Assembly: GCA_030685065.1 (NCBI GenBank)
Contig: JAUXQH010000095.1
Span: forward strand, 206,855-270,854
Source: Pseudomonadota bacterium
GTDB lineage: Bacteria; Myxococcota_A; UBA796; SXON01
Length of the DNA: 64,000 bases
Reading direction: 5' to 3'
The position numbers and the translations under genes are program-made. Below, piece by piece: positions 51,562 to 53,115 of the stretch (its first letter is position 1; every line of letters begins with the position of its first letter). The notes beneath the pieces are model-generated. The model saw only the letters and a list, made by a program, of their open reading frames with translations. It was not told the origin of the DNA and did no database searches.

Positions 51562-53115
51562 ATGGCCAGCGGCAACCGTGCCCGCCCCCCGAGCTTTCAA
51601 CCGGGCATGAACCTCTCCGACTACTACCGGGTCGAGGGGCTGATCCGTCTGGCCGAAGGGCGGATGTTCTACCTCGTGGACGACCATCGGCCCGATCGCG
51701 CGACGCGTCGGTGCTGGGAGTGCGGCAACGAGGACAACCCCACCACCGTCGAGCGGTGCACCGAGTGCGGCGGATCGTTGGCGACCCGCCAATTCCTCCT
51801 CTCGAGCCGCTGGGAGCGCGCCGGGTTCGAACCCTTCCTCGCGTTCTTCAACAAGCAGATCAGCCACCCGGCGATGCTCGCCCCCTGTGATGTGTTCCCC
51901 TTCCCGGAGGAGAATCCCACTCAGATCTGCTCGGTCGTGCCCTACAACAACGAGCTCCTGCTGCTCGACGAGGCCGCGCCCCTCCCGATCGACAGGGTCA
52001 TCGCGTTCGCGCAGCGGGCCATCGGCATGCTGGGCATGCTCGCGTTCAACGGCGTGCGTCTGAACTGGCTTCACCGCTCGAACTTCATGATCCGCCCAGG
52101 TGGCGAGTCCGTCCTGTTCGACCCCGACGTGGCCGCCGTCACCGACACCCCGCTCTCCCCGGACGAGACGCGGGAGTCCCTGATGGAGCTCGGAGAGATC
52201 CTCCGCCGCTACACCGCCCTCGAAGAGCGCGGGTGGCAGGAGTTCTTCGTCGAGGCGGAGCGCGGGTTGTTCTCCACCGCCGCCGAGTTCGGCCGGGCGC
52301 TCCAGCAGGAGGCCCACCGCCACGCCAAGCGTCGCGTCACCACGTCGCACGCCGGCATGACCGACGTGGGCCTCCAGCGCATGCTCAACGAGGACAACTG
52401 GGGCTGGGCCCGGCTGACCAACGGCGTCGAGATCTTCGTCGTCGCCGACGGCATGGGCGGGCACGACTGCGGCGAAGTGGCGAGCCTCCTCGCGGTCGAG
52501 ACCCTCATCGCGGTGGCGCGCCAGCGGGTCGAGGTTTCGCCCCGCCCCACGGTCGACGCGATCGAGAACATCCTCGACGAGGCCTTCCAGGAGGCCAACA
52601 ACACCATCAAGGGCAACGCGGAGGCCCGCGGGAACGACATGGGCACCACGCTCGTGGCGTGCATGGTGGTGGATGACTCGGTGGCGCTCTGCGCGAACGT
52701 GGGGGACTCCCGCGGCTACCTCGTGCGCAACAACACGCTGCACCAGATCACGCGGGACCACTCGCTGGTCGCCCGCATGGTCGAGCAGAACCGCATCACG
52801 GCGGAAGAGGCGCGGAACCACCCGCACTCGAACATCCTGCTGCGCACGGTCGGCACCGAGCGCAACGTGGACATCGACATCTTCCGCGTCGAGCTCGAGC
52901 AGGGCGATCGCCTGCTCCTCTGCTCGGACGGGCTCTGGGGCGAGGTCGAGGACTCCGAGATCGAGTCCATCGTGAACCAGCACCAGGACAACCGCATCGT
53001 GTCGCGCGAGCTCATCCGCGCCGCGCACATGGGCGGCGGCAAGGACAACATCTCGGTCATCCTCGTGAACGTGCCGGGCGAAACCCCGGCGGCCGACGAG
53101 ACCGGGAAGTCCTGA
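51562..53115 (+). CDS. PP2C-type phosphatase fused to a degenerate kinase-like domain
   Basis: A 517-residue protein. Residues 20-235 resemble a protein kinase that has lost its catalytic residues: [14 protein letters not shown] stands where HRDxxxxN is expected and LFDPDVA where DFG is expected. A four-Cys zinc ribbon is inserted (C51WEC54...C66TEC69). From about 255 there is a complete PP2C domain: [59 protein letters not shown] and [13 protein letters not shown], with the metal-binding Asps. It should dephosphorylate Ser/Thr, perhaps with the pseudokinase binding substrates. Start [11 protein letters not shown] chosen over the antisense-overlapping 51235. Confidence 0.87.

Follow-up and report, generated by a model that had tools for sequence, protein, structure and literature searches.

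Architecture and surroundings of the locus

The stretch of DNA analysed here (the window, 64,000 nucleotides) carries on its forward strand an open reading frame at positions 51562-53115. Judged from its sequence, the encoded protein is a divergent and shortened relative of protein kinases that bears a ribbon insert and is followed by a complete PP2C of the Stp1/PstP type. The following features were assigned.

51562..53115, + strand: open reading frame for the ribbon-pseudokinase and the PP2C, 517 amino acids (translation)
51613..52326, + strand: kinase-like domain, residues 18-255 (hhalign against 25 kinases; AlphaFold and Foldseek, PknB as best match)
51640..51672, + strand: degenerate glycine loop, residues 27-37 (column counts over 53 sequences)
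51712..51768, + strand: four-Cys ribbon with C51, C54, C66 and C69 (all four in 52/53 aligned members)
51790..51813, + strand: strand 3, residues 77-84 (QFLLSSRW), at the place of the VAIK motif (Lys in 0/53, columns 78-84)
52054..52086, + strand: pseudo-catalytic loop, residues 165-175 (hhalign alignment; column counts)
52117..52131, + strand: DFG position, residues 186-190 (FDPDV), with invariant D187
52351..53073, + strand: PP2C domain of the Stp1/PstP/IreP type, residues 264-504 (NF033484; alignment with tPphA and PstP)

An AAGGA-like ribosome-binding site is located about 11 nt 5' of the ATG at 51562 and this start codon is kept in near relatives. We aligned 53 distinct full-length members of the family (31-94% identity), a number that includes the window's own protein. 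The ribosome-binding site, these full-length members and the low dN/dS of the N-terminal domain (see below) indicate that the reading frame is real.

When we inspected the genomic context, we found tgt, a redoxin-like gene and a cca-like tRNA nucleotidyltransferase gene as neighbours. In another family of the order (f3), these genes were replaced by sulfatase, TonB-receptor and unknown genes. A link via an operon or a partner gene was rejected, the neighbours being unrelated and differing between families, and no conserved kinase partner gene adjoined the fusion gene in the families compared. The genome as a whole contains 73 kinase matches versus about 7-10 PP2C matches, and none of its PF00069 kinases is located within the 64-kb window. 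At 47201-48814 on the reverse strand, there is a gene for an FHA-containing sigma-54 activator with a Fis HTH. The preliminary description of this DNA had suggested a connection between this activator and the pseudokinase. This suggestion was not supported, since the two genes do not share an operon (the intervening tgt is divergent) and their synteny was not observed beyond the own family, which leaves proximity only. Next to the locus, two small hypothetical proteins without Pfam match (48813-49376 and 49373-50203) are likewise conserved within the own family.

Kinase ancestry and motif content of the N-terminal domain

For the N-terminal 260 residues, no family match over the cut-off was obtained in Pfam or NCBIfam, and the PP2C was the sole match of the protein. 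When a profile of 45 N-terminal domains (A1) was compared by hhalign with a profile of 25 kinases from the same genome (A4), a match probability of 97.2% (E 3.6e-11) was calculated. In the corresponding controls, 60 column-shuffled versions did not exceed 28% and the reversed version yielded 0.1%. With the ribbon columns taken out, the alignment spanned the whole kinase domain. Moreover, when the N-terminal domain was used as an HMM (A1 or A5), kinases were matched in genomes throughout the phylum, and two PF00069 kinases from the own genome were among them.

Structural modeling was carried out with AlphaFold using 14 sequences as input, and the confidence of the model was moderate (pLDDT of 68 for the domain alone and 77 for the full protein). 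In this model, strands 1-3, helix C, strands 4-5, helix E, strands 6-9, helix F and two more helices follow each other in this order. Comparison with the PDB by Foldseek gave 612 matches at E ≤0.001, the best 50 of which were all kinases, and PknB was the top match (E 1.9e-6, probability 1.00, TM-score about 0.46). TM-scores of this modest size are expected for a model of moderate confidence. The profile homology to kinases is strong and specific, and together with the predicted two-lobe topology it places the N-terminal domain in the protein-kinase-like superfamily. The preliminary description had proposed such a fold comparison, with a fold unrelated to kinases as the opposing outcome, and the fold obtained was kinase-like with PknB in first place. 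It had also assigned a kinase-like order to the N-terminal 230 residues; here the order is kept, but the domain extends to about residue 255 and does not end at 230-235.

Column counts over the aligned sequences indicated which kinase motifs were lost and which were kept. The glycine loop reads RLAEGR, with R29 and R34 being present in 53/53 sequences. The VAIK Lys is absent, since in all 53 sequences columns 78-84 of strand 3 lack a Lys. Its position is occupied by residue 77 in the hhalign alignment and by R83 (51/53 sequences) when the alignment is read by eye. In the pseudo-catalytic loop, HRD is changed to LNW and the catalytic Lys to His, and most members carry no acidic residue at the position of the HRD Asp. 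The catalytic-loop Asn174 is kept in 44 of the 46 orthologs. The DFG motif reads DPD, the Asp of which (D187) is found in 53/53 sequences and the Gly of which is not kept. Thus, HRD and the glycine loop are missing as originally described, but the same statement does not apply to DFG because its Asp is invariant. The activation segment (from DFG to helix F) is deleted and there is no APE motif. Gaps of 16 and 6 columns versus kinases are seen at this place, and in the AlphaFold model strand 9 leads almost directly into helix F. Neither this deletion nor the retained Asn174 had been noticed in the preliminary description. By the usual kinase criteria, a domain lacking the glycine loop, the VAIK Lys, the HRD Asp and the activation segment is predicted to be catalytically dead. 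With Asn174 and D187, the metal-binding half of the kinase site is kept, and ligand binding is therefore possible. Targeting and ligand sensing are both plausible roles, and the two retained residues as well as the invariant arginines are compatible with either.

The four-Cys ribbon follows the pattern CxxC-x11-CxxC (two CxxC knuckles) and lies as an insert between strands 2 and 3 of the kinase fold. An insert of this kind had been claimed for the locus, and the conservation of its four Cys in all but one of the aligned members bears this out. The Pfam family DZR scored 12.5 bits on the ribbon, which is below its curated cut-off of 27.3. In two genomes of one genus (L067 and L137 in G044 and G057), exactly the four-Cys insert is lost from an otherwise retained protein. 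Because of this clean loss, the ribbon appears to be dispensable and not to form the functional core. A comparison with 29 kinase loci from the own genome revealed no further ribbon-bearing kinase.

PP2C domain and comparison with known systems

The family model NF033484 (Stp1/IreP/PstP) matched residues 266-502 with 249.1 bits (curated cut-off 230). The domain could be aligned over its full length to group I PP2Cs of solved structure, among them tPphA, and a structural alignment gave about 37% identity with tPphA. The M1/M2 metal-ligand aspartates (D278, D296, D456, D495) and the third-metal Asp (D382) are invariant in 53/53 members. This confirms the earlier claim that all metal-binding motifs are in place, and with every metal-ligand Asp intact the PP2C looks active. 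Fold, profile homology and PP2C motifs thus agree with the idea of a ribbon-bearing pseudokinase fused to an active-looking PP2C. In one paralog (L140, G256:C12), the PP2C is degenerate too (SDG changed to SRG, flap missing), so that a pseudokinase is joined there to a pseudophosphatase.

As a phosphatase, the protein resembles the group I PP2Cs Stp1, PstP and tPphA, with which it shares the catalytic domain and the full complement of metal ligands, the third-metal Asp being one of them. Solved bacterial enzymes of this group such as tPphA and PstP are described as mostly lacking regulatory domains (PMC9430166), whereas here a pseudokinase of 260 residues precedes the PP2C. Fold order and profile homology are shared with Hanks-type kinases (PknB, PF00069 matches of the own genome), from which the N-terminal domain differs by the motif losses described above and by the ribbon between strands 2 and 3. 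In Pseudomonas and Deinococcus, single polypeptides are known in which a PP2C is likewise joined to a kinase-type domain, but there the PP2C forms the N-terminal part and no report describes the kinase as dead (Krupa and Srinivasan 2005, PMC1262709). In contrast, a dead, ribbon-bearing kinase comes first in our protein. Membership in the cyanobacterial PRK14559 family was rejected. The corresponding model (NF011149, 642 positions) scored 107.7 bits against a cut-off of 374, only its PP2C part (371-631) was matched, and the N-terminal domain did not match its first 370 positions. Literature searches among open-licence papers yielded no description of a bacterial pseudokinase-PP2C fusion, and within this literature the order-wide family of dead kinase, ribbon and PP2C appears to be undescribed.

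Distribution, constraint and proposed role

The preliminary description had called for the distribution of the fusion to be determined. We detected it in 60 of the 63 genomes of its order. Outside the order, one of the eight other genomes of the class carried it, and no instance was detected in about 300 other genomes of the phylum. Two of the three genomes of the order that lack it are 72% and 76% complete. In the wider phylum, only partial matches of the N-terminal domain were found (about 42-51 bits), which cover helix E and the catalytic-loop region. The module was not found on plasmids. Beyond the phylum, the distribution was covered by a scan of 84,980 species for close relatives, which returned loci titled deltaproteobacterial or proteobacterial MAGs. 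One locus (L033, CAMAXZ010000010.1) is titled Klebsiella pneumoniae; it carries a 79%-identical ortholog with the same synteny and is evidently a mis-titled MAG. In the gene tree, the sequences grouped largely by family, as vertical inheritance would predict, and family f3 contained one duplicated clade.

When we compared the protein with its two nearest relatives, dN/dS was 0.07-0.08 for the N-terminal domain and 0.08-0.16 for the PP2C. Among close relatives, the pseudokinase is thus no less constrained than the PP2C. At greater distance, the N-terminal domain changes faster, the kinase-like domain averaging 50% pairwise identity and the PP2C 67%.

A second architecture was observed in an outlying genome (G206). 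Here, the ribbon-pseudokinase module is fused to PP2C in one protein and to an active-looking kinase in another. The latter protein (L131:212-4099, G206:C142) comprises 1296 residues and consists of an N-terminal kinase, a long acidic linker and a C-terminal ribbon-pseudokinase, without PP2C. Its kinase domain matches PF00069 with 98 bits and contains the AVK, HGD and APE motifs. The four Cys, P140 and D187 remained invariant when the alignment was extended by the two modules of this genome.

On the basis of what was observed for its architecture, its homology, the lost catalytic motifs of the kinase part, the intact motifs of the PP2C, the selection acting on it and its distribution, we propose that the product is a soluble, constitutively fused signalling enzyme. 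Its C-terminal domain would be a working Stp1/PstP-type Ser/Thr phosphatase. The N-terminal domain would descend from a Hanks-type kinase that lost catalysis and would now act as docking and gating module that brings the PP2C to kinases or to substrates bound by them. The state of the pseudo-active site (Asn, Asp, arginines) and the zinc ribbon may tune phosphatase action, and in a genome with so many kinase matches the fusion may serve as a housekeeping off-switch. This reading, in which a dead kinase targets and gates a housekeeping PP2C, is the one we favour, if tentatively. Since the fusion is kept in nearly every genome of the order, it probably provides built-in steering or gating of the phosphatase in kinase-rich cells. 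When the PP2C was included in the AlphaFold model, confidence at residues 91-110 and 171-190 rose and pTM increased from 0.47 to 0.71. This may point to a fixed orientation of the two domains relative to each other or could be seed noise.

A close rival, itself quite conceivable, is that the N-terminal domain is primarily a ligand or redox sensor and targeting is secondary. A nucleotide or an anionic ligand bound at Asn174, Asp187 and the arginines, or loss of the ribbon zinc on oxidation, would then switch the PP2C allosterically. The invariance of D187, R29 and R34, the near-complete retention of Asn174 and R83 and the conservation of the ribbon Cys in nearly all members are in line with this explanation. 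There is also a precedent in Synechocystis SpkB, which carries a Cys motif beside a kinase-type domain and is inactivated by oxidation of this motif (PMC12189002). SpkB is a kinase with the motif at its N-terminus, whereas in our protein the ribbon is part of the kinase fold itself and a PP2C acts as effector. The genus that lost the ribbon and nothing else argues against an essential sensor function of this element, and with the VAIK Lys and the glycine loop gone tight ATP binding is doubtful.

It is improbable that the dead kinase is autoinhibitory or purely structural and simply caps or stabilises the PP2C, without partner or ligand. The pTM of the full protein is higher than we would usually expect for two floating domains of equal size, but the strongest conservation in the N-terminal domain is not confined to the core and extends to the Asp of the pseudo-active site and the Cys of the ribbon, and the module also occurs on a kinase without PP2C. 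Some kinase-fold families use altered active sites, and SelO, an AMPylase, has a kinase fold. In our protein, the metal-binding Asn and Asp are retained, and the N-terminal domain might in principle be a divergent kinase-fold enzyme that catalyses other chemistry in cooperation with the PP2C. We consider this highly improbable, because strand 3 lacks a Lys, the HRD Asp position is non-acidic in most members and the activation segment is deleted.

Targeting and gating by a dead kinase, the reading we favour, bears on the question of how few phosphatases serve many kinases, which is open for kinase-rich bacteria; an order-wide dead-kinase domain on a PP2C is a testable answer to it. Natural experiments are offered by the retained Asn and Asp, by the ribbon loss in one genus and by the kinase-fused version in G206. 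A module common to kinase and phosphatase is what a docking or a sensing role predicts. The more specific idea that a lineage-specific ribbon-pseudokinase is shared by opposing kinase and phosphatase and brings both to the same client or ligand seems rather unlikely. If it were true, the shared module would be a pseudokinase adaptor system of bacteria that forms part of a near-core PP2C.
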